Shown here: positions 33,238-57,439 of the stretch, piece by piece
Numbering within the stretch: position 1 is the stretch's first letter
Layout of the letters: each line of letters starts with the position of its first letter
Assembly (NCBI RefSeq): GCF_000255115.2
Contig: NC_018068.1
Location: 620,001 to 684,000 of the forward strand
Source: Desulfosporosinus acidiphilus SJ4
Lineage (GTDB): Bacteria > Bacillota > Desulfitobacteriia > Desulfitobacteriales > Desulfitobacteriaceae
Direction: 5' to 3'
DNA length: 64,000 bases
Notes under the pieces: model-generated
Database searches by the model: none
Seen by the model: the letters and a program-made list of their open reading frames with translations, nothing else
Told to the model about the DNA's origin: nothing
Program-made: the position numbers and the translations under genes

Positions 33238-33364
33238 GAGAGATAACAAAATAATCATTTATTCAGTAAACTAATTATGAAGTTTCTGGTGCGGATATAT
33301 ACTCAATGATGAGATTGTTAAGTTAAAAATATAAAATAATACTAAATAAAATCTTGAATATAAG
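33238..33364. other. Intergenic sequence downstream of korB
   Basis: AT-rich sequence without a clear terminator hairpin. It leads into the promoter element of the glycogen operon. Confidence 0.3.
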
Positions 33365-33402
33365 AAAAATGTCATGATAATGGCATTTTTTTTTATTAGG
33401 AT
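33365..33402 (+). promoter_or_regulatory. Palindromic promoter element, copy 3 (glycogen operon)
   Basis: The palindrome AAAAATGTCATGA/TAATGGCATTTTT at 33365-33390 is identical over 26 bases to copy 2. Nine T, AT, then TAGGAT (33397-33402) follow. The glgC start is 170 bases downstream, so the leader is long. Confidence 0.75.
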
Positions 33403-33571
33403 TTTACTAAAGACAACTTGAGCCAAGACGAAATGTTGGCAGCAACAGACCGGACGGAAGTCGAGGTTTATCTCGGACCTTCACAAAGCCGGATTATATA
33501 AATGGGCTAGCCCATTAAATTATGGGTTGAGAGAGTTTACATTCACTAGAATGAGAGAAGGGAGCACGAAG

Positions 33572-34771: not shown

Positions 34772-34827
34772 ATTATAGAAAGATTTAAAGGTAAGTTGCT
34801 ATCTCTGGATATAGAGGGGGAATAGTG

Positions 34828-34860
34828 ATGGATAAAAAGGATGTTCTGTTATGGAAATAA
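34828..34860 (+). CDS. Possible 10-codon leader peptide overlapping the glgB start
   Basis: ATG at 34828 follows the strong site GAGGGGGAATAGTG and encodes MDKKDVLLWK then TAA. The glgB ATG at 34851 lies inside it in another frame, 7 bases before the leader stop. Translational coupling is possible. It may simply be chance around the ribosome site. Confidence 0.35.
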   Translation: MDKKDVLLWK

Positions 34861-36797: not shown

Positions 36798-39205
36798 TGA
36801 AGTTGCTTGAGGGGGAAGGGCTTACTCTCAATGAAGCAACTCTTTGGGATAAGTTTAGTGCCTTGGTCATCTTGCTCAAAGAAAAAATCAGTATGTATCG
36901 GGCCGTAAACAGAAATTCTCAGTCGCTGGTTAAACAGGTTTATTACTTTTCAATGGAGTTTCTTATTGGCAGGCTTCTGTTAAATTACTTAATTAACTTT
37001 AAAATTGAAGACCTTGTCAGAGAGGGTTTAGCGGATTTAAGTATTGACCTTGATGATCTCTTGGAGCAAGAAGCGGATCCGGGCCTGGGTAATGGAGGGT
37101 TAGGCAGATTGGCAGCTTGTTTTCTCGACTCAATGGCTTTCTTGGGAATCGGCGGTCATGGTAATGGGATTCGCTATAAGTATGGGTTGTTTGAACAAAA
37201 GATTGTAAGCGGCAACCAGGTTGAGGTAGCGGATAATTGGCTTACGAATGGATATCCCTGGGAGACTTGTAAGCCTGAAGAGGCGATTGTTGTAAAACTC
37301 AAAGGAAATGTGAGAACAGATATAATCGACGGGCGCCTGACGTTTTTCCACGAGAACTATGAATCTGTACTGGCTGTACCTTATGATGTTCCGATTATGA
37401 GCTACGATAACACTTTGAGTATTAACACATTAAGGTTATGGAGTGCGAAACCTATTTGCGGAGAACTGGATCTGGCCTGTTTCAATCGTGGAGAGTTTAA
37501 TCTGACTTCCAGTTATGAATCAGAAGTTGAGACCATCTCCTATATTCTTTATCCTGACGAGAGCAGCCGCGCCGGCAGAGAGTTAAGGCTTAAACAGGAA
37601 TACTTTTTTGTTGCCGCAGGCTTAGGATCCATCGTACGAGATTACAAAAAAAGGCATAATTCAAGTTCCTTACAAGGTTTCTCACGCTGGGTGGCAGTTC
37701 ACATCAATGATACCCATCCGGTTTTGTGTATCCCTGAGTTGATGCGCATCTTGCTTGATGAAGAAGGATTGGGTTGGAATGAGGCGTGGAATATCACTGT
37801 TAACACTATCTCATTTACTAACCATACCATTATGCCGGAAGCTATGGAGAAATGGCCGATTGATCTGGTTAAAAGTCTTCTGCCAAGAATCTATCTAATT
37901 ATTGAAGAAATAGATCGCAGATTTAAGGAGGACTTGAAGAGGAGGTTTATGGATGATGAGGAGACAATTGGCAATACCCAGATTTTTAAAGACGGCTATG
38001 TTAGGATGGCAAATTTAGCAATCATTGGGTGTTCATCGGTAAATGGGGTTGCTAAATTACATACCGATATTATTAAGAATGAGATATTTAGAGATTTTTA
38101 TCGAATTTTTGGCTATAAATTTAATAATAAAACAAACGGTGTAAATTATAGAAGATTTCTTTTGGCCGCTAATCCAAAATTGTCTCATTTGATAACGGAT
38201 GCTATAGGACCAAACTGGAAGGAAGATGCGGCTGAACTTAAGAAACTGCATGGCTTAAAGGATAATTCCAGCTTTTTGGAACAGCTAGCGAAAGTTAAAT
38301 ACGAAAATAAATGTCGTTTGGTGGAGAGGATTAAGAAGACCCAAGGGCTTATCCTTGACCCTGCGTCAATTTTTGATGTGCAGGTAAAGAGAATCCATGC
38401 CTATAAAAGACAATTGCTTAATGTCTTGAAGATTATGCACTTATACAACAAGGCGCTAAACGACCCAGAATCCTTAACCGGTTCACATACTTTTATCTTC
38501 GGCGGGAAGGCAGCCCCAGGCTATCATTATGCCAAAACCGTGATTAAGCTTATAAATGCTCTGAGCCGGAAAATAGAGCAAGACCCGAAGGTTAACAAAA
38601 AGTTGAAGGTCGTCTTTATTGAAAACTTCAATGTATCACAAGGAGAATTGATTTATCCTGCCGCAGATATTAGTGAACAGATTTCAACAGCGAGCAAGGA
38701 GGCTTCCGGGACCGGAAATATGAAATTCATGATGAATGGTGCCCTTACCCTTGGCACTTTGGATGGAGCCAATGTTGAGATTAAAGAGGCTGTGGGCGAG
38801 GAAAATATCTTTATTTTTGGGCTTAACGCCGAACAAGTATTGAATTACACTCGCAATGGCGGTTATAAATCTTGGGATGAATACCATGCCAATTCGGTTA
38901 TCAGCACGTGTGTGGATCAATTAAGGGGTGGATTTTTCGAGAACATGGGGGAGGAGTTCAGAGTATTATACGATTCCCTGCTGATCTATAATGATGAATT
39001 TTTTGTCTTAAAGGATTTTCCTTCCTATATTGATACCCATAAAAAACTCCAAGCTCTTTATTTAGATCAAAAAAGTTGGAACCGAATTTCTCTGGTTAAT
39101 ATGGCGGAGTCAGGGGTCTTTTCGAGTGACAGGTCAATTAGAGAATATGCAGATGGGATATGGAAAATCAAATATCGTAATGTTAATAACCTAACTTCTC
39201 ATTGA
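36758..39205 (+). CDS. glgP: Glycogen phosphorylase GlgP
   Basis: The protein has 815 residues; TTGGAGGAAC lies 8 bases before the ATG. YYFSMEFLIGRLL and GLGNGGLGRLAACFLDS are the N-terminal signatures. EASGTGNMKFMMNGA carries Lys656, which binds pyridoxal phosphate. NDTHP and VKRIHAYKRQLLN are also typical. It releases glucose-1-phosphate from glycogen ends. Placing breakdown within the synthesis operon suggests one regulated storage cycle. Length is normal. Confidence 0.97.
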   Translation: MFADKESFKQAYLMKLLEGEGLTLNEATLWDKFSALVILLKEKISMYRAVNRNSQSLVKQVYYFSMEFLIGRLLLNYLINFKIEDLVREGLADLSIDLDDLLEQEADPGLGNGGLGRLAACFLDSMAFLGIGGHGNGIRYKYGLFEQKIVSGNQVEVADNWLTNGYPWETCKPEEAIVVKLKGNVRTDIIDGRLTFFHENYESVLAVPYDVPIMSYDNTLSINTLRLWSAKPICGELDLACFNRGEFNLTSSYESEVETISYILYPDESSRAGRELRLKQEYFFVAAGLGSIVRDYKKRHNSSSLQGFSRWVAVHINDTHPVLCIPELMRILLDEEGLGWNEAWNITVNTISFTNHTIMPEAMEKWPIDLVKSLLPRIYLIIEEIDRRFKEDLKRRFMDDEETIGNTQIFKDGYVRMANLAIIGCSSVNGVAKLHTDIIKNEIFRDFYRIFGYKFNNKTNGVNYRRFLLAANPKLSHLITDAIGPNWKEDAAELKKLHGLKDNSSFLEQLAKVKYENKCRLVERIKKTQGLILDPASIFDVQVKRIHAYKRQLLNVLKIMHLYNKALNDPESLTGSHTFIFGGKAAPGYHYAKTVIKLINALSRKIEQDPKVNKKLKVVFIENFNVSQGELIYPAADISEQISTASKEASGTGNMKFMMNGALTLGTLDGANVEIKEAVGEENIFIFGLNAEQVLNYTRNGGYKSWDEYHANSVISTCVDQLRGGFFENMGEEFRVLYDSLLIYNDEFFVLKDFPSYIDTHKKLQALYLDQKSWNRISLVNMAESGVFSSDRSIREYADGIWKIKYRNVNNLTSH

Positions 39206-39226
39206 ATATTAGGAAGGTGGGAGAGT

Positions 39227-40660
39227 ATGAAAATTGTTTTTGTAACTGCGGAAGCTGATCCTTTTATTAAAACCGGTGGTTTGGGAGAAGTGATGGGCTC
39301 CTTACCGGCCTTCTTGCATAAAAAAGGTGTAGACGTTCGTGTTATTATGCCGAAGTACAATGCCATTCCGGAAAGTTTCCAAAGAGAGTTTGAGCATCTC
39401 GCTCATTTCGATGTCCCAGTCGCTTGGCGTAAACAGTATTGCGGTTTAGATGAGATTGTCTATGAAGGGGTTCATTATTATTTCCTTGACAATGAGTATT
39501 ATTTTTCCTCCCGGCCAAGTATTTATGGGGAATATGATGATGCGGAACGATTTGTATTTTTTTGCCGGGCAGCTCTGGAAAGCTTAATCCATATACCGGG
39601 GTTTAAACCGGATATTCTCCATTGTCAGGATTGGCATACGGCTTTAATTCCGCTCATGCTTAAGGTGTTTTACGGCCAGGAGCCCCTTTATTTTCCGATA
39701 AAAACTATTTTTACCATCCATAACCTTAAATATCAGGGGATATTTGCTAAGGAAGTCCTTGGCGATATTTTGGGGCTGGGCATGGAGTATTTTACGGAAA
39801 ACAGCTTGGAATTTCATGGCGGAGTCAATTTTATGAAGGCCGCCTTACTTTATGCAGATTGGCTAACAACGGTCAGTCCAACCTACGCTCAGGAAATTCA
39901 AAATCCCTACTTCGGAGAAAAACTTGATGGACTTTTGAGGAAAAGAAGTCAATCTCTAACCGGAATCCTGAATGGTATTGATTATGCGGTTTATAATCCG
40001 CTGACTGACCCCTATCTCGTCAGGCCGTATAACAATTTTCGTCTCGCTAAGGAAGAAAATAAGAAGAATTTGCAAGCAGATTTTGGACTCCCGGTTCGGG
40101 GAGATGTTGCAGTCTTGGGGATGATCGGCAGGCTAGCAGACCAAAAGGGTGTGGATCTATTGGCCCACGTCCTCAAAGAAATACTTGAGCTGGATATTCA
40201 AATAGTTATCCTCGGCTCAGGTGAAAAGAAATATGAAGAAATGCTTAGATATTTCGCCTCAAACTATCCCGAAAAGGCAGCCATAAAACTAGAATACTCT
40301 GATAGACATGCTCATGAAATTTACGGAGGAGCGGATATGGTTTTAATGCCCTCTCGTTATGAGCCATGTGGTATTTCCCAGATGATTGCTATGCGCTATG
40401 GGACAATTCCCATTGTGCGGGAAACGGGAGGATTAAAGGATACGATCATACCCTACAATAAATTTACCGGTGAGGGTAATGGGTTTAGCTTCACCAATTA
40501 TAATGCCCATGAATTATTGTTCGCAGTGCAGCGGGCGGTAAAATTGTACCAAGAGGATAAGGCTGTCTGGGACAACTTATGTCAGAACGCTATGAGAAGT
40601 GATTTCAGCTGGGAGAGATCTGCAAATGCCTACATGCAGATCTATGAGTCATTATTATGA
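39227..40660 (+). CDS. glgA: Glycogen synthase GlgA
   Basis: The protein has 477 residues with GGAAGGTGGGAGAG before the ATG. MKIVFVTAEADPFIKTGGLGEVMGSLP contains the KTGGL ADP-glucose-binding motif. HCQDWHTALIPLML, LTGILNGIDY and the C-terminal MPSRYEPCGISQMIAMRYGTIPIVRETGGL (E-x7-type GT5 site) complete the fold. It extends alpha-1,4-glucan from ADP-glucose. The stop overlaps the start of the next gene (TATGATAATG). Confidence 0.97.
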   Translation: MKIVFVTAEADPFIKTGGLGEVMGSLPAFLHKKGVDVRVIMPKYNAIPESFQREFEHLAHFDVPVAWRKQYCGLDEIVYEGVHYYFLDNEYYFSSRPSIYGEYDDAERFVFFCRAALESLIHIPGFKPDILHCQDWHTALIPLMLKVFYGQEPLYFPIKTIFTIHNLKYQGIFAKEVLGDILGLGMEYFTENSLEFHGGVNFMKAALLYADWLTTVSPTYAQEIQNPYFGEKLDGLLRKRSQSLTGILNGIDYAVYNPLTDPYLVRPYNNFRLAKEENKKNLQADFGLPVRGDVAVLGMIGRLADQKGVDLLAHVLKEILELDIQIVILGSGEKKYEEMLRYFASNYPEKAAIKLEYSDRHAHEIYGGADMVLMPSRYEPCGISQMIAMRYGTIPIVRETGGLKDTIIPYNKFTGEGNGFSFTNYNAHELLFAVQRAVKLYQEDKAVWDNLCQNAMRSDFSWERSANAYMQIYESLL

Positions 40661-43600
40661 TAATGTTTAACGCGTTTCATGATTCACATGATTTGCTTTA
40701 TCGGGAACCTTTTGGAGCGGTGGTATGCGGTCAAAGGATAACATTCCGTTTGAGAACGTTTTCAGATGTTTCTGTTGACCATTGCGTTCTTCGTCTTTGG
40801 GAAATGGATAGAGAAAGAACTATTGATATGTCCCCAAATACCAAGGGCCGCCAATGTCAATCAGCGGATTGCGGGACAGCTTCTGCGAATGAGGAAGTTG
40901 CAGATACCGGTATCTTTGAGGTGGAATACGAAGTGCCCGATGATCCTGGGCTTGTCTGGTACTATTTTGTGATTCAGGTTGGAACCCAAGTTCATTACTA
41001 TGGTAATAATCAAAAAGGTCTTGGGGGAGAGGGAGCACTCTGGGAGCGAGAGCCCAAGTCCTATCAAATCACTGTTTATAAGCAGATGACAGTACCTGAC
41101 TGGTATAAACGAGGGATTATGTATCAAGTTTTTGTCGATCGTTTTTTTAACAATGACCCTAACATGTTCGTTAGATATCCGCGCAAAAATGCTTTGCTGC
41201 ATGCCCGATGGTCTGATCAGCCGGTTTATATTAAAGACCAGCTCGGTAAAGTTACAGACTGGGACTTTTTTGGCGGAACATTGCAAGGGGTCATCGAAAA
41301 ATTACCCTACTTTAAAGAATTGGGAGTAAGCATTCTTTATTTTAACCCTATTTTTGACGCTCCAAGTAATCATAAATATGATACGGCGAACTATCATCGG
41401 ATTGATCCAATGTATGGAGATGAGGCGGTATTTCAAGCCTTAATTGAGACTGCCCGGCAATTAGGAATCTCTATAATCCTGGATGGCGTCTTCAGTCATA
41501 CAGGAAGTGATAGTATCTATTTTAACAAATATGGCAATTACCCGGGGGTGGGTGCCTACCAATCCTCTGACTCACCTTATTACAACTGGTATAAATTTAA
41601 TAAAGACAACCATGATTATAAAGCCTGGTGGGGCGTTGATTCCCTGCCTGAAGTCAACGAAATGGACCATACCTACAGAAGGTTTATCTATGGTTCGGAA
41701 GATAGTGTCATTAAGAAGTGGTTAACTTTAGGGGTTGCCGGATGGCGGTTGGATGTTGCCGATGAACTACCTGATGAGTTCATTCAGGAGCTCCGCCAGG
41801 CGGTGAAGACTGTTAGCCCCCACGCTGTTCTGATCGGCGAAGTGTGGGAAGACGCTTCCAATAAAGTAAGCTATAGTCAACAACGCAAATATTTCTTGGG
41901 AAATGAACTGGATGCGACGATGAACTATCCTTTTCGGGCTAGTTTTCTCCGTTTTATTCTCGGAACAGGTGATTCGGATTCCCTTGATCAAGAAGTTATG
42001 AGTTTATATGAAAATTATCCTCGAGAAAATTTTTATGCTGCTATGAACCTGATCGGGAGTCATGATACTATTCGAGTTTTGACCCTTTTGGGAGATGCTC
42101 CCCCGCAACAGAGTTTAACGGATACCGAACAGAGGACCTTTCGGCTTTCTCCTCTTGCCAAGCAATTAGCTGTACAAAGACTAAAATTATTAAGTTTAGT
42201 GCAAATGACCTTTCCGGGAGTTCCTTGTATTTACTATGGAGATGAAGCAGGTATGGAGGGGTATGCCGACCCTTATAACCGGGGGACATATCCGTGGGGC
42301 CAGGAAGACTACCGGATCATGGAGTGGTATCGACGCATCCTGCGCTGGCGTCAAGAATACGAGACGCTGATGATGGGTGATTTCCGATCGTTCTATTTCG
42401 CTCCGGATATTTTTGGTTTTACACGTTCCGTGGATGAAGAAGAAATCATCATCCTTATCAATCGTCATGCTTTGGAGTCTAAAATCGTAAATCTCTATAC
42501 AAAGCTAGAGCCTAGCCCATTTATAATTGATCTTATAAATGGGGAAACACTGGCGGTGGAAGCGCTAAGTGCCTTGCCCATAAATGCTTTGAGCGGAAGG
42601 TGTTTGTTGAGAAAGAAAAGCCGGCCTCGTAATTTGCAGCTTGACCGTTCATGCGGTGTATTATTGCATATCAGTTCATTGCCTTCCGTTTGGGGACTGG
42701 GAGATTTAGGGGAAGAGGCTTATGAATTTATAGATTTCTTGGCTGACTGCGGTCAATCTTTGTGGCAGGTCTTACCCTTGAATCCTGCCGGAGAAGGGGA
42801 TTGCCCTTATCAAAGTGATTCAGCGCTTGCCGGAAATCCGCTATTTATCAGTATTGATCATTTAATCAGGGAAGGATTATTAAATTTTGAGGAAACTAAA
42901 GAAAAATACGATAAGATTCGGAGCCTTGACCCGAGAGACAGCTTCTTATCTCTTGCTTTTAAAGAATTAAAACAGGAATTGCTTCGTGAAGCCTACCGGC
43001 AATTTATGAATCTTGTTGATGCTGTAAAATCATCGTATCTATCACAGGAAAGCTTTTTGGAATTTCAAACCAGAAACAAAGATTGGCTGGAAGATTATTC
43101 ACTCTTCAAGGCCTTAAAGGCATATTTTAGGGATGTTCCCTGGTATGATTGGGAATCCGAAATTGCTTGGCGTGATCCAAGTAAGTTAGCCGATTATGCT
43201 CGGCTTTTGCAAGATGATATTAATTATATAAAGTTCTTACAATATACTTTTTCCTACGAATGGGGTAAACTCAAGGCCTATTCCAAGGAAAAAGGAGTTC
43301 GAATCATTGGGGATTTACCCCATTTTGTTGCCGCCGACAGCTGTGACGTCTGGGTAAATCGCGGTTTGTTTGTTCTGGATGAGCATGGCCGACCTCTTAA
43401 AACTGCAGGGGTACCCCCTGATTATTTCAGCAAGACAGGTCAGTTATGGGGAAACCCTGTTTATGCTTGGGACGTTCATGCTGTTACTCGCTATGGTTGG
43501 TGGAAAAGACGGATTCAGCTCGGCTTGGAAATGTTTGATTACCTGCGATTTGACCATTTCCGGGGTTTTGAAGCCTACTGGGAAGTTGATGCTGGAGAAA

Positions 43601-44145
43601 AGACGGCTGAAACGGGTCGCTGGATTAAAGGACCTGGGAAAAGGTTCTTAGAAAGTATGTTAGAAGAGTTTGGACGATGCCCTTTTATTGTTGAGGACTT
43701 GGGGGTTTTAACTCCGGAAGTTAACATCTTAAAACAAATTTTCGGTTTTCCGGGTATAAAGGTCCTGCAATTTACTTCACTACAAGAGATATTAGGGAAT
43801 TCTGAGACCAATTTTGTCTATTATACAGGAACCCATGATAACAACACTTTATTAGGTTGGTATGAATTAAATAATTTGGTGGAAGAGGAAAATCAGCTCA
43901 GCAGTGGTGTTGACCAAAAAACATCGAATAAACAATCATGCCGTAAATTGATGGAAGAAGTGTATTCCAGTCAAGCGGCGTGGGTAATCCTACCGATGCA
44001 AGATATTTTAGGTTTAGGCGAGGAAGCAAGAATGAATGTACCTGGGACTATTTATGGGAATTGGCAGTGGAAGATGGATAAAAATTTAGTTACGGATGAA
44101 ATAAAAACTTGGCTGCGAACCCAAACCGAGAAAACAAATAGGTGA
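40657..44145 (+). CDS. Bifunctional GH13 glycan-debranching/neopullulanase-like protein fused to 4-alpha-glucanotransferase (GH77)
   Basis: The protein has 1162 residues in two enzymes. Residues 1-640 form an N-terminal beta domain and a GH13 barrel with YQVFVDRFFN, nucleophile Asp366 (GWRLDVADE), acid/base Glu395 (LIGEVWED) and Asp470 (GSHDT). From residue about 657, VLLHISSLPSVWGLGDLG begins a complete MalQ-type GH77 domain with Asp966 (LRFDHFRG), Glu1013 (VEDLG) and Asp1061 (GTHDNN). All six catalytic acids are present, so both halves should be active. The protein would debranch or cleave and then shuffle maltodextrins. The stop codon closes the glycogen operon. Confidence 0.92.
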   Translation: MIMFNAFHDSHDLLYREPFGAVVCGQRITFRLRTFSDVSVDHCVLRLWEMDRERTIDMSPNTKGRQCQSADCGTASANEEVADTGIFEVEYEVPDDPGLVWYYFVIQVGTQVHYYGNNQKGLGGEGALWEREPKSYQITVYKQMTVPDWYKRGIMYQVFVDRFFNNDPNMFVRYPRKNALLHARWSDQPVYIKDQLGKVTDWDFFGGTLQGVIEKLPYFKELGVSILYFNPIFDAPSNHKYDTANYHRIDPMYGDEAVFQALIETARQLGISIILDGVFSHTGSDSIYFNKYGNYPGVGAYQSSDSPYYNWYKFNKDNHDYKAWWGVDSLPEVNEMDHTYRRFIYGSEDSVIKKWLTLGVAGWRLDVADELPDEFIQELRQAVKTVSPHAVLIGEVWEDASNKVSYSQQRKYFLGNELDATMNYPFRASFLRFILGTGDSDSLDQEVMSLYENYPRENFYAAMNLIGSHDTIRVLTLLGDAPPQQSLTDTEQRTFRLSPLAKQLAVQRLKLLSLVQMTFPGVPCIYYGDEAGMEGYADPYNRGTYPWGQEDYRIMEWYRRILRWRQEYETLMMGDFRSFYFAPDIFGFTRSVDEEEIIILINRHALESKIVNLYTKLEPSPFIIDLINGETLAVEALSALPINALSGRCLLRKKSRPRNLQLDRSCGVLLHISSLPSVWGLGDLGEEAYEFIDFLADCGQSLWQVLPLNPAGEGDCPYQSDSALAGNPLFISIDHLIREGLLNFEETKEKYDKIRSLDPRDSFLSLAFKELKQELLREAYRQFMNLVDAVKSSYLSQESFLEFQTRNKDWLEDYSLFKALKAYFRDVPWYDWESEIAWRDPSKLADYARLLQDDINYIKFLQYTFSYEWGKLKAYSKEKGVRIIGDLPHFVAADSCDVWVNRGLFVLDEHGRPLKTAGVPPDYFSKTGQLWGNPVYAWDVHAVTRYGWWKRRIQLGLEMFDYLRFDHFRGFEAYWEVDAGEKTAETGRWIKGPGKRFLESMLEEFGRCPFIVEDLGVLTPEVNILKQIFGFPGIKVLQFTSLQEILGNSETNFVYYTGTHDNNTLLGWYELNNLVEEENQLSSGVDQKTSNKQSCRKLMEEVYSSQAAWVILPMQDILGLGEEARMNVPGTIYGNWQWKMDKNLVTDEIKTWLRTQTEKTNR

Positions 44146-44174
44146 TTGAAAGTGACTTAAGGGTAGAGGGGTGT

Positions 44175-44204
44175 TTATTTTTCAGGCAAAGCACTGAAAA
44201 ATAA
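44175..44204 (+). terminator. Hairpin after the glycogen operon
   Basis: TTATTTTTCAG (44175-44185) and CTGAAAAATAA (44194-44204) pair perfectly over 11 bp around an 8-base loop, 30 bases after the stop. The stem is AT-rich and no T run follows, so it may protect mRNA ends or terminate weakly. Confidence 0.55.
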
Positions 44205-44223
44205 TATAGCTTCGCAATGTAAT

Positions 44224-44261
44224 AAAAATACCATTATAATGGCATTTTTATTTGTTAATAT
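44224..44261 (+). promoter_or_regulatory. Palindromic promoter element, copy 4 (peroxiredoxin)
   Basis: The perfectly symmetric variant AAAAATACCATTA/TAATGGCATTTTT at 44224-44249 (except the A/C pair) is followed by ATTTGT and TAATAT at 44256-44261. The peroxiredoxin ATG is 114 bases downstream. Confidence 0.72.
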
Positions 44262-44374
44262 CCAAATGAGTAGAACGAATATCTGTAAATTCAAGAGATA
44301 TCTCGTTCCGATGTATGAAACTATTATTACTGAACAACAGAAGGTAAGTAGAATATAAATAGGAGGTACGAATC

Positions 44375-44833
44375 ATGGAAAATCCAATAATGATTGGAGC
44401 AACTGCTCCGGATTTTAAGTTGCAGGATAATCGTGGTAATATGCTTAGCTTAAGTGATTATACCGGCAAAAAGGTATTGCTTTCCTGGCATCCTTTAGCC
44501 TGGACTCGTGTATGTGCCGAACAGATGAAATCATTAGAAACGAATTATGCGCGATTTGCAGAACTCGGTACGATTCCCTTGGGGTTAAGTGTTGATCCGG
44601 TTCCTTCTAAAAATGCCTGGGCCAAGGAACTTAAAATTGCCAATCTCAAATTGCCCTCGGATTTTTGGCCTCATGGAGCCGTTGCCAAAGCCTACGGCTT
44701 GTTTCGTGAACTGGAAGGGTTTTCTGAAAGGGCCAATGTGATTGTTGATGAAAACGGTAAAATCAGTTGGGTTAAAATTTACGATATTCCTGAGATCCCA
44801 GATGTTGAGGAGGTTATTCAGCAATTAAAATAA
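44375..44833 (+). CDS. Peroxiredoxin (AhpC/TSA family, 1-Cys-like)
   Basis: The protein has 152 residues; AGGAGGTACGAATC precedes the ATG. GATAPDFKLQDNRGNMLSLSDYTGKKVLLSWHP is the thioredoxin-fold N-terminus. PLAWTRVC holds the peroxidatic Cys47 (family PxxxTxxC). No second cysteine in the usual resolving position is seen, so it may rely on an external thiol. The Arg of the active site at the helix further on is not clear. It reduces peroxides in the cytosol. It is one of several redox genes with the palindromic promoter element. Confidence 0.88.
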   Translation: MENPIMIGATAPDFKLQDNRGNMLSLSDYTGKKVLLSWHPLAWTRVCAEQMKSLETNYARFAELGTIPLGLSVDPVPSKNAWAKELKIANLKLPSDFWPHGAVAKAYGLFRELEGFSERANVIVDENGKISWVKIYDIPEIPDVEEVIQQLK

Positions 44834-47582: not shown

Positions 47583-50500
47583 TTGTTAACGGAAGCAAAT
47601 AACCTTGATTCTAAATATAATTCGAACATAATATCCTCGGACTCCAAGGTGACTTACATAGGTAATGGTTTTCTTGAGTTAACGGGATATTTAAAAAATG
47701 AACTTGAAAATAAAGATATTTCTGAAGTGTTCACCAAACTCTTAAGATTATCACAAAAGAAGTTTGAACAAATTGACTCGAAGAATGATTTGGAGTGTTA
47801 CATATTCACAAAGTCTTTAGAAGTAAGAGAAGTCATAATATCTGTTCAGGATCAAGATTCGAAAAGTCTCATTTATACTGTTGTCGAAAAGCAAAATTCC
47901 AGGCTAGACGATAAACTTATTTTTGAAGAGCAATTATTTAAAGATAATATTGTAGGTTGTTCTATTTACAGTGCACCGGATTTAATTTTGTTAAAAGCAA
48001 ATCACAAATATCTTGATTTCATGGATCAATCCTACAGTACAATGGAAAAATGCATAGGTTTATCGTTGTGGGAAAGTATACCCGGATTTGAAGGCAGTAA
48101 TTCTGAAGAGTTATTTTTATCTATCCTGAAAACCGGTATGCCTAGATATTATAACGAATTTAAATATGACCACTATGAAAGAGGAATTACCTATTGGGAT
48201 GGTTCGGTAGTTCCAATATTTCAAGGCAAAAAGCTCAAATATATCTTTCAAACATGCACGGAAGTAACAGAAAGAGTACTAAAAAAGACTCTAATTGAAG
48301 AGCAGATTGAAATTAATGAATTTCAAAATAAGAGGATTAATGAGGTTTTGAGCAGTATACGAGATGATGTTTATGTTCTTGACTATAATTGGAATTTCGT
48401 TTTTGCCAACCAACAATTTACCTCTAGAATCGGTAAGGAATCTAAAGATATAATCGGGAATAATATTTGGGATGTTTTACCGAAATATAAGGGAACACTA
48501 TTTGAAAAGAACTTTCGGGCAGCAATGAGCACAAGGGCGATAACACGCTTCGAAGTGAGCGGTATTTATTCTGAAGCCCATTATAGAATGGCTGCATTTC
48601 CTTCGGTGGAAGGAATTACCGTTCTGGGAACTGATATTATTGAACATAAAAAAGCCGAAGAAGCGCTTAGGAAAAGTGAGGCAGAAAAACAACAGCAAAA
48701 AGAACGGTTAGAAGCAATTATTAAAAGTATGTCTGATGGTCTGGAAATTGTTGATAATGAATTAAAAATATCCTTCTTGAACCAGTCTGCGAAAGATTTT
48801 TTTTATTGTCCCGAATCAAAATTAAATGCCGGGGATTCCTTAAAAAATAACAAGTACTATTATGGTATTGATGGTGAAGAGATCCCAAAGACTGATTTGC
48901 CGGCTTTTAGGATAATCAATAAAGGTAGTTTTGATAATTATATCTTAACAATTGTCCGGCCTGACAAAAAGATTTATACGAGCATCAATGGAAGCCCTAT
49001 TATAGGAAATGATGGTTTGGTTAAAGAAGCTATTCTTTGCATTAGAGATATTACCGAAAAAGTTAAACAGGAGCGGGAAAGCCAAGCAAAACTGGAATCA
49101 GCTCTTGCAAGCATGACCGATGCCGTCTTCATATCTAATGCAGAGGGTAATTTCATCAATTTCAATGATGCCTTCGCGACCTTCCATAAGTTTAGGGACA
49201 AAGATGAATGCTTGAAGACTCTGAGCGAATACCCGGATATACTTGATGTTTTTACGGCAGACGGCAAGCTAGCGCCTTTAGAGGGGTGGGCTGTATCGAG
49301 AGCATTGAGGGGTGAATCAATCAGCAATGCTGAATATACACTGCGGAGGAAAGATACCGGGGAGACTTGGATCGGCAGCTATAGCTTTGGTCCTATAAGA
49401 GATGAGAATGGTGTCATCATTGGTTCAGTAGTAACAGCGCGTGATATCACTCATCAAAAGCATGCCGAGGATGACATTAAAAAGCTGAATAAACAGCTAT
49501 TAGAAACAAACATGCTTCTGGAAGAGACAAATGCTTCTCTGGAAGAAGAAATTCATGAGCATCGAGAAACAACATCAGAATTACAAGAAACCTTGCATGA
49601 ACTTTTGGAGACGAAGATATACCTTAATAATATTTTAGAAAGTTCAACGAGGTATTCTATCATCGGTAAAGATTTAAATGGCCGGATACTCTCCTGGAAC
49701 GAGGGAGCGGTGCGAAATTACGGCTATAGAGCGGACGAGATTATCGGCCAGGACTCAAGCATCCTACATACACCCGAAGACCTCCAATCGGGTGAGGTGG
49801 CTAAGATGTTGAAGTTGGCTTATGAGCAGGGTATTGCCGAAGGTGAGTTTCAGCGCGTTCGGAAAGATAACTCGCGTTTTATTGCAAGTGTTGTTGTCAC
49901 ACGCCGAGATGACGCTGCAGGGAATCCCATTGGTTATCTTCTTATAAGTAATGATATTTCGGAAAAGAAGAAAGCAGACGAAGCAATAAAGCGAATGAAC
50001 TATGAATTGGAAGAAATGAATGCTGAATTAGAAGAAATGAATGCCGAATTAGAAGAAACCAATGCAACTCTTGAGGAGGAAATTTCAGACCATCAAAGAA
50101 CAGCCTTAGAATTACAAGCGTCGAAAAGAGCTGCCGAAGCAGCAAACCAGGCCAAAAGTCAATTCCTTGCCAATATGAGCCATGAAATCAGAACACCGAT
50201 GAACGGTATTTTTGGGTTTCTGGAATTATTAAATCATTCCCAGCTGTCACAGGTGCAACGGGAATATATTCGTGAGGTAAAATCCTCTTCCGAAACATTG
50301 CTGCACCTTATTAATGATATTTTGGATTTATCCAAAATAGAGTCTGGAAAACTCACGTTGGAAAACTTGAACTTTAATCTCAGAACTACTATAGAGGATG
50401 CAATGTCATTGTTTGTACCAACTGCTTATGAAAAACATCTTGAACTGTATACCCAAATAAAAGCAAACGTACCGGATGAAGTGAGCGGCGATCCTTCAAG

Positions 50501-51686
50501 ACTTAAGCAAATATTAAGCAATCTTATCTCTAATGCTTTGAAGTTTACTGAAAATGGGGAAGTATCGATTGTCGTTGAAACAGTTGAAGAAAAAAATGGT
50601 TTTGCAACCATTAGATTTGAGGTTAGAGATACTGGGATTGGAATCCCTAAAGAGGATACCAAAAGGATTTTCCGGCCTTTCGACCAAGCTGATGCATCAA
50701 CAACGAGGAAGTATGGAGGAACAGGACTGGGCCTTGCAATAACTAAAGAACTAGTAACGATCATGAAGGGAACCATCGGTGTGGATAGTGTGCCGGGCCA
50801 GGGCTCTACATTTTACTTTACGGCAAAATTTAAAATTCTTAATAAGAAAGCTGTTTGCGACAAGTATGTCAGCTTAAATAACGTCAATGTTTTTATTGTG
50901 GACGATAATGATAACAATCGCAGAATAGTTAGATCCTATCTTGAGGATGCAGGGTGCAAAGTTATGGAAGCCAAATCTAGTGATAAAGCACTATCTACTA
51001 TCCTAAACAATGCTTATTCAGAAAACAACAAGATACAGCTTGTTCTGGTAGATTATCATATGCCCGGTATAAATGGTTTTGATTTGGCCACAGCTTTAAA
51101 CATGATTCCCGCTACAAAGGATTTAAGATTAATATTATTAACCTCTTCTGCCCAAATGGGGGATGCTGGTAGGGCGAGAGAACTAGGTTTTTCAGGGTAT
51201 CTTACGAAACCGGTTAGAAGAGATGAGTTACTTAATTGTATGTCAATCGTATTAGGTTTGGAACGAGATCCAGAGAATAGCCGGGAAATAGTTACAAAAT
51301 ATACTCACAATGAAAATCAAAGTGTACTCAAACCCAAACTATTACTTGTTGAAGACAACGAAGTGAATCGTAAAGTCGTTTTAGCAACACTTAAATCTCG
51401 CGGCATGACCTGTGATGTTGCCATGGATGGACAAGAAGCCTATGAAGTCATGCTAAAAAAAGATTACGATCTAGTGTTTATGGATTGTCAAATGCCTGTT
51501 ATGGATGGGTATGAAGCCACAAAGAAGATCAGAGAAGCCGAAGGCAGCAAGCATACAAAAATTATTGCTATGACGGCAAATGCTATGATGGGTGACAAAG
51601 AAAAATGTCTTGAAGCGGGCATGGATGATTATATCAGCAAACCCATTGACTTTGAAGAAATGTTCAAAATCATTGATGAACTGTAG
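47583..51686 (+). CDS. Large cytosolic hybrid histidine kinase: multiple PAS, HisKA, HATPase, two receivers
   Basis: The protein has 1367 residues with a TTG start. About six PAS-like sensory domains fill residues 10-790 (SKVTYIGNGFLELTGYL, NWNFVFANQQFTSRIG, GRILSWNEGAVRNYGYRADEI), interrupted by coiled coils around 640 and 800-850. The phosphorylated His867 is in [11 protein letters not shown]. The ATPase domain has NLISNALKFT, DTGIGIP and GGTGLGL. Receivers follow with Asp1157 (LVDYHMPG) and Asp1301 ([10 protein letters not shown]). No membrane segment exists, so it senses a cytosolic signal. Its kinase-receiver part resembles the one at 54969. Partner regulator unknown. Confidence 0.94.
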   Translation: MLTEANNLDSKYNSNIISSDSKVTYIGNGFLELTGYLKNELENKDISEVFTKLLRLSQKKFEQIDSKNDLECYIFTKSLEVREVIISVQDQDSKSLIYTVVEKQNSRLDDKLIFEEQLFKDNIVGCSIYSAPDLILLKANHKYLDFMDQSYSTMEKCIGLSLWESIPGFEGSNSEELFLSILKTGMPRYYNEFKYDHYERGITYWDGSVVPIFQGKKLKYIFQTCTEVTERVLKKTLIEEQIEINEFQNKRINEVLSSIRDDVYVLDYNWNFVFANQQFTSRIGKESKDIIGNNIWDVLPKYKGTLFEKNFRAAMSTRAITRFEVSGIYSEAHYRMAAFPSVEGITVLGTDIIEHKKAEEALRKSEAEKQQQKERLEAIIKSMSDGLEIVDNELKISFLNQSAKDFFYCPESKLNAGDSLKNNKYYYGIDGEEIPKTDLPAFRIINKGSFDNYILTIVRPDKKIYTSINGSPIIGNDGLVKEAILCIRDITEKVKQERESQAKLESALASMTDAVFISNAEGNFINFNDAFATFHKFRDKDECLKTLSEYPDILDVFTADGKLAPLEGWAVSRALRGESISNAEYTLRRKDTGETWIGSYSFGPIRDENGVIIGSVVTARDITHQKHAEDDIKKLNKQLLETNMLLEETNASLEEEIHEHRETTSELQETLHELLETKIYLNNILESSTRYSIIGKDLNGRILSWNEGAVRNYGYRADEIIGQDSSILHTPEDLQSGEVAKMLKLAYEQGIAEGEFQRVRKDNSRFIASVVVTRRDDAAGNPIGYLLISNDISEKKKADEAIKRMNYELEEMNAELEEMNAELEETNATLEEEISDHQRTALELQASKRAAEAANQAKSQFLANMSHEIRTPMNGIFGFLELLNHSQLSQVQREYIREVKSSSETLLHLINDILDLSKIESGKLTLENLNFNLRTTIEDAMSLFVPTAYEKHLELYTQIKANVPDEVSGDPSRLKQILSNLISNALKFTENGEVSIVVETVEEKNGFATIRFEVRDTGIGIPKEDTKRIFRPFDQADASTTRKYGGTGLGLAITKELVTIMKGTIGVDSVPGQGSTFYFTAKFKILNKKAVCDKYVSLNNVNVFIVDDNDNNRRIVRSYLEDAGCKVMEAKSSDKALSTILNNAYSENNKIQLVLVDYHMPGINGFDLATALNMIPATKDLRLILLTSSAQMGDAGRARELGFSGYLTKPVRRDELLNCMSIVLGLERDPENSREIVTKYTHNENQSVLKPKLLLVEDNEVNRKVVLATLKSRGMTCDVAMDGQEAYEVMLKKDYDLVFMDCQMPVMDGYEATKKIREAEGSKHTKIIAMTANAMMGDKEKCLEAGMDDYISKPIDFEEMFKIIDEL

Positions 51687-51742: not shown

Positions 51743-51779
51743 AAAAATGTCATAATCATGGCATTTTTTTTGTTATACT
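51743..51779 (+). promoter_or_regulatory. Palindromic promoter element, copy 6 (small RNA)
   Basis: The palindrome AAAAATGTCATAA/TCATGGCATTTTT at 51743-51768 is followed by T and GT, then TATACT at 51774-51779. The spacer is one base shorter than in other copies. A terminator follows only about 90 bases later, before any gene. Confidence 0.72.
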
Positions 51780-51784
51780 ATCGG

Positions 51785-51875
51785 AAAGTATAACCTTTGG
51801 TTGTATACTTTCTTCTGGCATAAGTGCAACTTAGCTGGCGCTTCGCCGGAGGCTAAGCGCCAGCTAAGTTTTCTT
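51785..51875 (+). ncRNA. Candidate small RNA between kinase and SOD-like genes
   Basis: From about 7 bases after the -10-like hexamer, the sequence holds a 9-bp hairpin (GAAAGTATA/TATACTTTC, 51784-51812), a short single-stranded stretch and a strong terminator. A transcript of about 90 bases with no convincing open frame is predicted. Inferred from promoter plus terminator only. Confidence 0.5.
51829..51873 (+). terminator. Strong terminator
   Basis: ACTTAGCTGGCGCTT pairs perfectly with AAGCGCCAGCTAAGT over 15 bp, followed by TTCTTT. It lies 140 bases after the kinase stop and before the SOD-like gene's own promoter element. Confidence 0.85.
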
Positions 51876-52003: not shown

Positions 52004-52041
52004 AAAAATGTCATAATAATGGCATTCTTTTCAGTTAACAT
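52004..52041 (+). promoter_or_regulatory. Palindromic promoter element, copy 7 (SOD-like gene)
   Basis: The palindrome AAAAATGTCATAA/TAATGGCATTCTT at 52004-52029 is followed by TTCA, GT and TAACAT at 52036-52041, 57 bases before the ATG. Confidence 0.75.
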
Positions 52042-52097
52042 TCTATCTAAGGAAGACATTTGGTTAAAGATTTACAAATAACTAGGAGGAGATCAAA

Positions 52098-52622
52098 ATG
52101 ACAAGTCGATTACCAGAATGGCTATATCCTTATAACTTATCAGAATACTATTACAACAAGATCAATATAAAACCTTGCCAAGGTTTACATAGCAGAAAAT
52201 CCAAGTTAAACAACATTATTTTGCAGAATTTATGTCCTGGCGGCAATGGGCCGGTACAGGGAATATTAGCTGAGCAAATTACTAATGATTTTGGCTCTTT
52301 TGATAATTTTAAAAAGAAGTTTATGGATACTTCTGCATCAGTTGAGGAATTTAGCTGGACATTATTAGTTTGGAGTCCATGTTTTAAAGAATTGGAAATT
52401 ATCCAAGCAGAGAAAAATCAGGATCTTACCCAGTGGGGAGTTATTCCACTTTTAATCTTTGATGCTTGGAATCCCGTAAATGATCTCAATTATCAAGACA
52501 AGAGAGCAAGTTGGATCGAAGCATGGTGGAATTTCATTAATTGGCAGGATGTTCTTAATCTTTTCGAAGAAAATATTGAAAATTACCCTGATACAGACGA
52601 TGGAGAGTTATTAAGTTCTTAA
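52098..52622 (+). CDS. Fe/Mn superoxide dismutase homologue lacking most metal ligands
   Basis: The protein has 174 residues; AGGAGGAGATC precedes the ATG. The C-terminal SOD fold is clear: GILAEQITNDFGSFDNFKKKF and DLNYQDKRASWIEAWWNFINW. In active enzymes the metal site uses His, His, Asp, His. Here the usual DVWEHAYY is DAWNPVND, keeping Asp122 but replacing the His with Pro126, and the NHxxxWN helix reads LNNIILQN without its His. The first His helix is shortened, with at most one candidate His. It therefore probably does not dismutate superoxide by the normal site. It may be a structural pseudoenzyme, for example a coat component (inference). Confidence 0.82.
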   Translation: MTSRLPEWLYPYNLSEYYYNKINIKPCQGLHSRKSKLNNIILQNLCPGGNGPVQGILAEQITNDFGSFDNFKKKFMDTSASVEEFSWTLLVWSPCFKELEIIQAEKNQDLTQWGVIPLLIFDAWNPVNDLNYQDKRASWIEAWWNFINWQDVLNLFEENIENYPDTDDGELLSS

Positions 52623-52691: not shown

Positions 52692-52744
52692 ACCCATAGA
52701 AGGTCAGACTGTCTTTTGGACGGTCTGACCTTCTATGGGTTTTT
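52692..52744 (+). terminator. Strong terminator after SOD-like gene
   Basis: ACCCATAGAAGGTCAGAC pairs over 18 bp with GTCTGACCTTCTATGGGT around a short loop, followed by TTTT. It lies 69 bases after the stop codon. Confidence 0.92.
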
Positions 52745-52935: not shown

Positions 52936-53667
52936 ATGGAAGAAGATATAAGCAGCCATAAGTTAAAAAGCCATCTTATAGATTATAAGAGCCATGAAAT
53001 TCGGACATATATGACTAGAATCATTGGAATGACAGATTTAACACTTATGACGGAGCTAACAGAAGAACAGTTGGATTATTTAACAGTCATCAAGTCATCA
53101 ACAAAATCACTCTTGAAAGTGTTAAATGATATTCTGGATTATTCGAAAATCCTAGCGGGCAAAGCTAATCTAGAGCAAGTTCCATTTGCTATTCGTGAAA
53201 CAATTAATGAAGTGATTGATATAGTTACGATTGCGGCAAAACAAAAGAATATTCATCTAAGGCTTAATAGTTTGGATAAAAGTATTCCGAAAAAGCTTAT
53301 TGGCGATGCAACCAGACTAAAACAGGTACTTTCGAACTTAATTGATAATAGTATCAACTTCACTGACAACGGTGAAGTAACCATACAAGTTGATATTGAA
53401 GATCAAGATGAAATTAGTATGCAATTAAAATTCATTGTGACAGATACTGGTACAGGGGTACCTGAGGAAAAGCTTGTCCGACTGTTAGAGAGTTTCGGTC
53501 AGGATGGAAGTATCAATAGGTTGGAATCTGAAGGCGCAGGGCTGGCAATTTCCCAAAAACTCGTTGAATTAATGAAGGGTAAACTATATGTCGAAAGTAC
53601 GGAGGGGATTGGGAGTAAGTTTTATTTTACTGCAGTTTTCGGTATCCAGGGAAAAGGAGGTTGTTGA
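52936..53667 (+). CDS. Short soluble histidine kinase (HisKA-HATPase only)
   Basis: The protein has 243 residues. Phospho-acceptor His is in KSHEIRTYMTRIIG (the usual Pro after RT is Tyr). The ATPase domain has LIDNSINFT, DTGTGVPEE and EGAGLAISQKLVELMKGK. No sensory or membrane domain is present, so it probably needs a partner for input. Its stop overlaps the start of the OmpR-type regulator, which is its natural partner; the V4R protein that follows may be the sensor (inference). Confidence 0.88.
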   Translation: MEEDISSHKLKSHLIDYKSHEIRTYMTRIIGMTDLTLMTELTEEQLDYLTVIKSSTKSLLKVLNDILDYSKILAGKANLEQVPFAIRETINEVIDIVTIAAKQKNIHLRLNSLDKSIPKKLIGDATRLKQVLSNLIDNSINFTDNGEVTIQVDIEDQDEISMQLKFIVTDTGTGVPEEKLVRLLESFGQDGSINRLESEGAGLAISQKLVELMKGKLYVESTEGIGSKFYFTAVFGIQGKGGC

Positions 53668-54365
53668 TCATCGAAACAATAGTAGTCGCGGAAGATGATG
53701 ATAGTATCAGAAAATTCCTAAGTATATTGCTGACTAGAGAGGGTTTTGATGTAAAAGTCGTTGAAAGAGGTACTGAGGTAATCACTGAGTGCCGTATTTC
53801 TAAGCCGGATCTACTATTGCTTGATATAATGATGCCTGGGATGGATGGTTTTGAAGTATGTCGCAACATACGGAAAGAAAGTAATCTGCCCATCATCATT
53901 TTAACTGCAAGGGAAAATAATGAGGATAAGATTTCAGGACTAATCTTGGGCTGTGATGACTACATAACAAAGCCGTTTGATAGCACAGAACTTGTGTTAC
54001 GCATTAAAGCAGTATTGCGCAGAGCTAAAGAACACAGTAAGCCGGAAAACGAACGGAATATTGTTGAGCTTCCTGGCATGACAATTAATAATACCAGCAG
54101 AATTACCGAGGTTAAAGGGAAGGTTGTTGATCTAACCCCCAAAGAATATGCTCTGCTCTGGCTTCTGGCTAACCGCCCGGAACAGGTCTTCACAAGAGAA
54201 CAGCTTCTTGATCAAATATGGGATGTAGACTATTACGGGAGCACTTCAGTTGTAACCTCACTGGTAAAACGTCTTCGAGAAAAGATTGAGCCCGATGTTT
54301 CTAATCAATATTATATTAAAACGATCCATGGGGTGGGATACAAACTGGGAGTGAAACCTCTTTAA
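53664..54365 (+). CDS. OmpR/PhoB-family response regulator
   Basis: The protein has about 233 residues. AAGGAGG at 53654-53660 lies very close to TTG codons at 53661 and 53664; 53664 is chosen but the start is uncertain. VVAEDDDSIRKFLSILL gives the acidic pocket, LLDIMMPGMDGFEV the phosphorylated Asp, ILTAR and YITKPFD the switch and Lys. From about 135 a winged helix (VVDLTPKEYALLWLLANRPEQVFTREQLLDQIW, IKTIHGVGYKLG) binds DNA. It overlaps the kinase gene and could regulate this block. Confidence 0.9.
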   Translation: MIIETIVVAEDDDSIRKFLSILLTREGFDVKVVERGTEVITECRISKPDLLLLDIMMPGMDGFEVCRNIRKESNLPIIILTARENNEDKISGLILGCDDYITKPFDSTELVLRIKAVLRRAKEHSKPENERNIVELPGMTINNTSRITEVKGKVVDLTPKEYALLWLLANRPEQVFTREQLLDQIWDVDYYGSTSVVTSLVKRLREKIEPDVSNQYYIKTIHGVGYKLGVKPL

Positions 54366-54427
54366 CGAATTGGCCAGGGGTGGTTCGCTGTACCGTTTCG
54401 TATGTAAGAACGAAAGGAGGGGTATAT

Positions 54428-54949
54428 ATGGAACAAGGCCGAAAATACACGTTTTCGTGGAATCATATTGGCGATATTGCAGACGGTCGTCCTAATTTGG
54501 GCAATACGGCAAGTGTCGAGGCCTATCGTCTCATGCAGTTTTCTTGTCGAGATGTTATGGAACAATATCTAGGTACGGAAAAAACCGATGAAGTATTCTA
54601 TCAAGCCGGTAAACTGGCCGGTAAGGAATTCTATAATCACGTGCTTACTCCGACAAAAGATTTTAATGAATTCCTTCGACAATTACAATTGGCTTTACTG
54701 GAACTAGGAATAGGGATTTTGCGCGTTGAAAAAACAGATCTGGAACATGGAGAACTTGTCTGGACAGTTTCTGAAGACATAGATTGTTCTGGTTTGCCAG
54801 AAATGGATTTTGAAATTTGCACATACGATGAGGGTTTTATTTCATCACTGCTTGAATGCTTTTCGGGAGTACCATTCCAAGTCAAGGAAGTGGATTGCTG
54901 GTGTACTGGTGACAGAACGTGTCGCTTTAGGGCAAAGGCGATAAAATAG
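54428..54949 (+). CDS. V4R-domain protein
   Basis: The protein has 173 residues from the ATG at 54428, with AAAGGAGGGG 6 bases upstream; earlier in-frame codons have no site. The sequence EVFYQAGKLAGKEFYNHVL, then VWTVSEDIDCSG and the final CWCTGDRTCRFRA match the 4-vinyl-reductase (V4R) domain, a small-ligand-binding module often with conserved C-terminal Cys. It follows the OmpR regulator by 62 bases and precedes a hybrid kinase by 19. In known cases V4R proteins feed signals to regulators. Ligand unknown. Confidence 0.8.
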   Translation: MEQGRKYTFSWNHIGDIADGRPNLGNTASVEAYRLMQFSCRDVMEQYLGTEKTDEVFYQAGKLAGKEFYNHVLTPTKDFNEFLRQLQLALLELGIGILRVEKTDLEHGELVWTVSEDIDCSGLPEMDFEICTYDEGFISSLLECFSGVPFQVKEVDCWCTGDRTCRFRAKAIK

Positions 54950-54968: not shown

Positions 54969-57287
54969 ATGGATAACTCGAAAGAAATTGTTCTACTTAT
55001 AAAATGTTTAAAGAGCCTCATTGAAGACAAAGAAGTTCCCGAAGTACCTCCGGAAGAGATTGCAAACATCGAAGAGTTTGGAGCAATATATTCCTCTTTA
55101 CTGGAGATTCGCAATGTTTTTATAGCTCTTGGTAAGGGAGAACTGACATATCCTATTAAGTCAAAAGGATACTTTCCCGGTGCGATCAAGAGTTGGCAAG
55201 CATCTTTGCGTCACTTAGTATGGCAAACGAAGGCAATTTCCTCGGGCGACTTTTCTCAACGTGTTGCTTTTTTGGGAGAGTTTTCTGAGTCATTTAACAG
55301 TATGACAGAACGTCTGGCAATGACAATAAATGAGCTCTCCAATCAAAACAAAGAGAAAGAAAAACGTGAAGCGGAATTAATTAAAGCCAAAGAGGCGGCC
55401 GAGGCCGCAAACATTTCCAAGAGTCTCTTTCTTGCGAATATGTCCCATGAAATTAGAACACCCATGAACGGCATCATGGGTTTTCTTGAGTTGCTGAATA
55501 TGTCCAACCCCTCTACAGAACAAAAAGAGTATATACGTGAGGCGAAGTCTGCTTCAGCGGTATTATTATATGTAATTAATGATATATTGGATTTTTCTAA
55601 GATTGAAGCTGGTAAGCTTACAATGGAAGAATCCTGCTTTAAGACCAGAACAGCTATTGAAGATGCGGTATCGCTCCATGTGCATAAAGCTTTTGAGAAA
55701 AATTTAGAACTTCATTCTATGATAAATGCCAATGTTCCGGAAGAGGTTATTGGTGATGCTCAACGGTTAAGACAAGTCTTAAATAATTTAATTGGGAACG
55801 CTGTGAAGTTTACCGAAAAAGGCGAGATTTCTGTTACAGTTGATTGCATAGAGGAAGAGGATGAAATTGCTTTACTTAAATTTGAGATTAAGGATACTGG
55901 AATCGGAATTAGTCAGGAAGACTTTCAAAAACTGTTCCAGTCTTTTAACCAAGTTGATTCCTCAACGACAAGAAAGTATGGGGGAACGGGCCTTGGGCTT
56001 GCAATTTCAAAGGAATTAGTGTCCCTGATGAGAGGGAATATTGAATTTAAAAGCATACTTGGAGAAGGTTCTAACTTTAAATTTGACGTGCGTTTCAAAA
56101 TAGCGAAAAGAGTTCCAGACCACAACTATGTCTTTAAAGAGTTGGCGGGAGTCAATATCCTTATCATTGACGATAATCCCAGTAATCGAAGAATTGCTAT
56201 ATCATACCTAGGAGGTATGGGTTGCAAAGTATTTGAAGCTAAAGATCCTGGCGAAGCAATCACTACCATTATTTCCAAAGTGAGTACAAGAGATAAAATT
56301 GATATTGCGCTAATAGACTACCGAATGCCCGGTATGAGCGGCTTTGAACTGGCGACTTCTCTGAAAGCCATTCCTTTTGCATCAGATATTAAATTAATAC
56401 TGCTTACCTCGGCAGCTCAAAGTGGAGGTGCCAAAGAGGCAAAGCAGTTAGGCTTCGCGGGATATCTTATTAAGCCCATTAAAAGAGATGACCTGCTTAA
56501 TTGTATTGCTATCGTTTTAGGCTTAAAAAGCGAGGAAAATAATGAACCTATTGTGACCAAATATGTTGTTCAAGAAGGTCTTGATCATAGGAAACCTAAA
56601 ATACTTTTAGTTGAGGACAATGAAATAAATCGTAAAATTGTCACAGCAGTGCTTAAAACGAGGGACATTACGTGTGATGTCGTGATAAATGGCCTGGACG
56701 CTTATCAAGCTGTTAAGAAAAAAGACTACGATATTGTTCTTATGGATTGCCAGATGCCGGTTATGGATGGGTATAAGTGTACAGCCAAAATAAGAGAGAT
56801 GGAGGGCAGCAGTAAACACACTACCATTATTGCTATGACAGCTAATGTTATGGAAGGCGATAAAGAAAAGTGTATTCAGGCCGGTATGGATGATTATATT
56901 GGCAAGCCTATCAATTTTGATAACTTGTTTCAAATAATAGAATCCTATATAGAGAAAAGTAAGGGCGGTTCGAAATACTTTAATTTTATCGTAAATTATA
57001 TTGAAGGATTTATTGATCGCACCGGCATTTCAAGAAATGATGCTGAGGAAATATTTATAGATTATGCTAAAAAACTCCCCCAGATATTGCTGGAGGCTGA
57101 AAATTATCTTGCCAATGAAGAACTGGATAAATTAGAGATTTTTGCTCATAAGGAAAAAGGGACCGCCGGAAATCTATGTATAACTCCAATTTATCAATTG
57201 GTTGGAGATCTTGAAAAAGCAGTTAAAAAGCGGGAGAAAAACGAATGCTTAAGAATCTATAAGGAAGTTCGAAAACTATTTCATTAG
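54969..57287 (+). CDS. Hybrid histidine kinase with HAMP-like region, two receivers and Hpt domain
   Basis: The protein has 772 residues. The N-terminal 130 residues have no membrane segment but contain a HAMP-like stretch ([26 protein letters not shown]). His160 is in [11 protein letters not shown]; ATPase motifs are [17 protein letters not shown] and GGTGLGL. Receivers carry Asp450 ([10 protein letters not shown]) and Asp593 ([10 protein letters not shown]). The Hpt domain has His727 in [10 protein letters not shown], giving a complete phosphorelay His-Asp-His. It is close in sequence to the kinase at 47583 and follows the V4R gene, so V4R may act as its sensor (inference). Confidence 0.93.
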
Positions 57288-57402: not shown

Positions 57403-57439
57403 AAAATGTCATGATAATGGCATTTTTTTTTATTATCAT
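57403..57439 (+). promoter_or_regulatory. Palindromic promoter element, copy 8 (membrane peptide)
   Basis: The palindrome AAAATGTCATGA/TAATGGCATTTT at 57403-57426 is followed by nine T, AT and TATCAT at 57434-57439, 84 bases before the small ORF. It lies 116 bases after the hybrid-kinase stop. Confidence 0.75.

Follow-up and report, generated by a model that had tools for sequence, protein, structure and literature searches.

The question raised by this locus of Desulfosporosinus acidiphilus SJ4 is what an open reading frame with a recognizable superoxide dismutase (SOD) domain and a dismantled metal site might be doing behind a shared operator. We consider its product, termed here the pseudo-SOD, to be quite probably a pseudoenzyme of Fe/Mn SOD descent within a local oxygen-stress regulon, where it would act non-catalytically, in a partner-binding or scaffold role. 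No paper on metal-free bacterial relatives of the Fe/Mn SODs was found in the open-access literature. The window, that is, the whole 64-kb stretch analyzed out of the 5-Mb SJ4 genome, contains the following features that bear on the question (PR denotes Desulfosporosinus sp. PR):

27312..44833, + strand: other genes of the operator cluster, for a flavodiiron protein, flavin reductases, a 2-oxoacid:ferredoxin oxidoreductase, the glycogen operon and a peroxiredoxin, with operators at 27131, 29799, 33368 and 44227
47583..51686, + strand: hybrid histidine kinase rich in PAS domains, 5' of the pseudo-SOD gene (89% in PR)
51746..51765, + strand: second operator copy, about 350 bp 5' of the pseudo-SOD start, kept in PR with a 2-base insertion
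51828..51870, + strand: terminator-like inverted repeat in the interval from the hybrid kinase to the pseudo-SOD gene, with 20-nt arms followed by TTTTCTTT
52007..52026, + strand: palindromic operator AATGYCATNATNATGRCATT = AATGTCATAATAATGGCATT, directly 5' of the pseudo-SOD gene
52084..52089, + strand: ribosome-binding site AGGAGG (the consensus), 8 nt 5' of the pseudo-SOD ATG and identical in PR
52098..52622, + strand: pseudo-SOD gene, ATG start, 174 aa; C-terminal SOD domain with the hairpin deleted, the metal histidines lost and Asp122 kept
52692..52740, + strand: intrinsic terminator 3' of the pseudo-SOD gene, with 22-nt arms and a T run
52936..53667, + strand: short histidine kinase (HK2); several relatives have it close to their intact SOD
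53661..54365, + strand: OmpR-type response regulator, associated with the operator across genomes
54380..54949, + strand: protein with a V4R domain and weak similarity to MsvR, a redox regulator from methanogens
54969..57287, + strand: hybrid histidine kinase carrying two receiver domains plus an Hpt domain
57405..57424, + strand: operator copy whose PR equivalent precedes a desulfoferrodoxin (superoxide reductase) gene absent from the SJ4 locus

By descent, the pseudo-SOD is a member of the Fe/Mn SOD (SodFM) family: its residues 55-152 match the Pfam Sod_Fe_C profile (E = 1.1e-23; 83.7 bits, the cut-off being 20.9), its predicted structure is comparable to those of SODs (Z of at most 16.4), and it groups with them in the phylogenetic tree. 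Among proteins of solved structure, Fe/Mn SODs are likewise the closest to it in sequence, and the NCBIfam SOD equivalogs match it too, with scores far under their cut-offs. A Pfam-based annotation would misname the gene 'superoxide dismutase'. There is no second Fe/Mn SOD homologue in the SJ4 genome, and the same holds for PR.

The active site, however, has been taken apart. In an alignment with 12 intact relatives (in what follows, the left-hand residue is that of the intact SOD L033 and the right-hand one that of the pseudo-SOD), with ligand and gate positions assigned as established for the Fe/Mn SOD family, all three ligand histidines are replaced in SJ4, namely His34->Cys27, His82->Asn38, with the canonical LLHSLFW reading LNNIILQ, and His170->Pro126, with the DVWEHAYY metal loop reading DAWNPVND. 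The Glu and Tyr of this loop are gone as well, and Trp86 has become Leu. Hence, Asp122 is the only one left of the four ligands (three His and one Asp), which a survey of the SodFM family describes as universally conserved (PMC10172142); like Trp124, it is invariant across the pseudo-SODs and the intact relatives. Additionally, a 37-residue in-frame deletion between the first two metal-His regions has removed the N-terminal helical hairpin, and with it 19 further residues that are invariant in the 12 intact relatives, one of which is the gate Tyr. Of the 92 columns that are invariant in canonical SODs, 38 are retained by both the SJ4 and PR proteins; within the C-terminal domain, 31-32 out of 45 are. 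From these losses, we infer that the pseudo-SOD lacks SOD activity.

An AlphaFold2 model built from an alignment of ten sequences has a confident C-terminal domain (block means of 80-94 for residues 51-120), whereas pLDDT stays below 50 both for residues 1-50 and for residues 126-131, where the metal loop used to be. When an intact SOD was placed first among the same sequences, the hairpin helices were recovered (residues 20-51 and 54-79, with block means of 75-91 past residue 30), so the low confidence of residues 1-50 does not stem solely from alignment depth. Searches with the pseudo-SOD model using Foldseek and VIA-align rank SODs first (Z up to 16.4), and also recover two groups of SOD-fold proteins embedded in larger assemblies. 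One comprises mitoribosome chains from Trypanosoma brucei (6hiw_Cr), T. cruzi (7aor_y), Leishmania (7ane_y) and yeast (8uxa_AD), with Z of 12.6-14.1, which are presumably mS42/mS43-type subunits and, we take it, devoid of metal ligands. These resemble the pseudo-SOD in fold and are placed within a structural complex, but are eukaryotic, larger (250-300 residues) and ribosomal, whereas the pseudo-SOD is small, bacterial and part of a redox regulon. The other comprises the PAP4/PAP9-type subunits of the plastid RNA polymerase (8r5o, 8ras; Z 12.4-12.5), SOD-family proteins that serve as subunits of another machine; these plant proteins are longer (215-263 residues), and no comparable complex is known for the pseudo-SOD. 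Metal-free SOD-fold proteins are known from eukaryotic organelle machines, and by analogy with such subunits a partner-binding or scaffold role appears most likely for the pseudo-SOD.

The lesions are not peculiar to SJ4. PR possesses a syntenic ortholog (NZ_JAVHUW010000050.1; 83% identical) with the same start, the same 37-residue deletion and the same NPV loop with its His->Pro change, indicating that both the deletion and this replacement predate the SJ4/PR split. Unlike SJ4, PR retains the middle metal His and its Trp (LHSILWQ). A search of genome contigs with exact peptide seeds recovered PR as the only further close ortholog; a class-level search yielded no third close copy, viral contigs contained no ortholog, and plasmid matches were all below 60% identity. 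Six other Desulfosporosinus genomes code for intact regulon SODs with all ligands in place (e.g., L033, L034 and L036; 53-59% identity over approximately residues 31-160), which share the upstream operator and mostly adjoin the same kinase-regulator pair, but keep the HHDVHH, LLHT/S and DVWEHAYY motifs and the full hairpin, where the pseudo-SOD has lost three ligand histidines and 37 residues. In yet other genomes the regulon SOD is broken by in-frame TGA and TAA codons (G034), reduced to an N-terminal relic (G032), or present as a relic (G011:C942) alongside an intact copy (G011). These broken and relic genes of three other Desulfosporosinus genomes lie at L039 1330-1860, L040 3587-3673 and L042 3106-3177.

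These comparisons bear on the first-pass annotation of the gene, which was made from the sequence alone. Its identification of the open reading frame as a SOD relative is upheld by the Sod_Fe_C match, the frame itself and the ribosome-binding site, and the alignment bears out the exchange of His for Pro126 beside a remaining Asp122. Its claim that the mid-helix lacks its His is true of SJ4 (Asn38) but not of PR, and its inventory of losses was right for the second and third histidines but overlooked the first (Cys27) and the hairpin deletion. The preservation of the SOD fold, which it also asserted, is predicted to hold for the C-terminal domain and not for residues 1-50 or the loop 126-131. 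Although distant relatives keep the histidines, which it would have taken as a sign of a local mutation, the nearest ortholog has the same deletion and His->Pro change, and the low dN/dS of the pair (0.19, see below) leads us to reject that reading; the PR ortholog likewise rules out an assembly error in SJ4. Its suspicion that the protein is probably no ordinary SOD finds strong support in the loss of metal site and hairpin common to both orthologs.

The genomic setting is one of oxygen defense. The operator occurs in five exact copies in the 5-Mb genome, all inside the 64-kb window, as are 8 of the 11 sites found genome-wide with two or fewer mismatches. Sites of this kind precede the genes for the flavodiiron protein (one mismatch), flavin reductase, glycogen operon and peroxiredoxin (one mismatch), as well as the kinase region. 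The same kind of operator lies 5' of the SOD-type gene in PR, G009, G023, G027, G029, G033, G034 and G054; overall, it is present in all 10 genomes that have a regulon-type SOD or a relic of one, and in 3 of 35 others (Fisher p = 9e-8, ignoring phylogeny). Its association with the neighboring OmpR-type regulator (7/8 vs 6/37; Fisher p = 3e-4, ignoring phylogeny) makes this response regulator the candidate binder of the palindrome. The early proposals that the gene has its own copy of a shared promoter element and is expressed with redox genes agree, respectively, with the palindrome at 52007-52026 and its second copy at 51746-51765, and with the sharing of this operator, which would imply co-expression. 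Matches in a scan for sigma-70-type promoters were no more frequent than in shuffled sequences. The local regulon as a whole (27131-57424), defined by the 20-bp palindrome, looks like a system for glycogen-fueled oxygen reduction under two-component control.

Within this regulon, the strong terminator 3' of the pseudo-SOD gene suggests that it is probably its own transcription unit; PR retains the stem of this terminator, with its two arms changed to match each other. The stretch with the inverted repeat at 51828-51870 is replaced in PR by other sequence. In HK2, Pfam detects HisKA and HATPase domains only, with no sensor domain; a new sensor partner is unneeded, since genomes with intact SODs have similarly short kinases. 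The V4R protein adjoins a hybrid kinase, and no DNA-binding domain was found in it. On the minus strand at 46833-47138 lies a gene for an EncB-family encapsulin-type ferritin-like protein, and between it and the peroxiredoxin gene an IS-type DDE transposase (45039-46642, two overlapping ORFs) that is unmatched in the PR cluster. The pseudo-SOD as encapsulin cargo was ruled out, the shell gene (PF04454) being without a match in the SJ4 genome (G000), G016 and G054.

Desulfoferrodoxin is found in 28 of the 29 genomes of the genus, with two copies in SJ4 and three in PR, one of which sits in the pseudo-SOD cluster, preceded by the counterpart of the 57405 operator. Comparing SJ4 57405-58078 with PR L031 4200-4941 reveals that SJ4 has kept the operator and a small membrane-peptide ORF and lost the desulfoferrodoxin. 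Superoxide removal in the genomes with a pseudo-SOD is probably the work of superoxide reductases, and a take-over by these enzymes, which we infer, would explain why SOD activity became dispensable. In a peat bioreactor under oxygen stress, the SOD and desulfoferrodoxin genes of Desulfosporosinus were not identified or hardly transcribed (PMC11451228).

Such dispensability also invites the view that the pseudo-SOD is a pseudogene on its way out, its frame still open because decay is recent. In its favor, the same gene is broken in G034 and a relic in G032 and G011:C942, so that its loss is evidently tolerated, and SJ4 is still shedding conserved residues that PR keeps (His82->Asn, Trp86->Leu). 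Against this, the lesions are older than the SJ4/PR split, and the gene has been under purifying selection since, with a dN/dS between the orthologs of 0.20 over 171 codons or 0.19 over 165 codons (bootstrap 0.10-0.34), as compared to 0.08-0.21 for neighboring genes and 0.05-0.26 for pairs of intact SODs. Moreover, both frames, the ribosome-binding site, the operator and the terminator are intact, and when neutral drift was simulated, the two frames both stayed open in 0-0.1% of runs. The constraint is not exceptionally strong and is measured on one ortholog pair; the dS of this pair (0.46-0.51, others 0.22-0.36) and its dN (about 0.09-0.10) are the highest of the neighborhood, and hence the ratio may overstate the constraint. 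Nevertheless, with a frame open in two species and no relaxation of selection, the pseudo-SOD is probably not a decaying pseudogene, and we regard that account as improbable.

A further case comes from another family. The genome G054 codes for a degenerate SOD (L048 14818-15357, minus strand) that, like the pseudo-SOD, has the same operator upstream, lacks the hairpin and has the response regulator (78% identity) close by; a terminator-like repeat follows it, as do genes for a hybrid kinase and for a membrane protein of DoxX-like type. Unlike the SJ4 protein, it keeps the metal-loop Asp and His (DIWRHEHS), its deletion is larger and removes the second His region too, and its genome has an intact SOD (L055), whereas SJ4 has no other Fe/Mn SOD. 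The tree places it with the regulon-type SODs (99/97), apart from the intact SOD of its own genome; a single origin of the three degenerate SODs is neither established nor rejected by the tree test (p-AU 0.41), the G054 branch being very long. The differing lesions suggest that it is an independent conversion of a regulon SOD.

Returning to the pseudoenzyme that we favor, we envisage the following history. In the common ancestor of SJ4 and PR, the regulon SOD would have been stripped of the hairpin, of its first metal His and, in the C-terminal metal loop, of the Glu-His...Tyr motif; the SJ4 lineage would also have lost the middle metal His and the neighboring Trp. The remainder is mainly the C-terminal alpha/beta domain, which is expected to still fold. 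It would be transcribed, probably as its own unit, from the shared operator together with the flavodiiron, peroxiredoxin, glycogen and kinase genes, with superoxide probably being left to the superoxide reductases, and the retained domain would most likely play a non-catalytic part in the stress response, binding a partner or serving as a scaffold. A more specific version, in which the SOD domain is a redox-responsive partner of the kinase/V4R/response-regulator relay, perhaps via Cys46 and Cys95, with such conversions having occurred repeatedly (SJ4/PR and G054), is a speculative one that we deem doubtful.

The same cysteines, present in both pseudo-SODs and in none of the 12 intact relatives compared, could alternatively form, along with His31 and the invariant Asp122, a rebuilt site that binds metal or is redox-active and confers a new catalytic activity, and the invariance of Trp124 would fit this as well; however, the pattern comes from two sequences, and residues 1-50 are those modeled with pLDDT below 50, making such a site very unlikely. 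A structural role in the spore coat, as the first-pass annotation had proposed, draws on the fact that Desulfosporosinus forms spores and that SodA is found on Bacillus spore coats, but the operator and the neighboring genes constitute an oxygen/redox regulon, no sporulation gene was identified adjacent to it, and we hold this to be very improbable. That the protein remains a functional SOD whose ligands are unusual, a view for which its being the sole Fe/Mn SOD homologue of the genome might speak, is scarcely credible with three of the four universally conserved ligands (PMC10172142) replaced, the gate Tyr deleted and the metal-loop Glu and Tyr lost.

If our preferred reading of the pseudo-SOD as a non-catalytic SOD derivative is true, it would represent a bacterial metal-free SOD fold kept by selection in an oxygen-defense regulon, i.e., an enzyme in the course of turning into a non-enzyme, with plainly decaying copies of the same SOD gene present in sister species. 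As intact, degenerate-but-selected and broken versions thus lie behind one operator in a single lineage, the step of conversion itself would be open to experiment.
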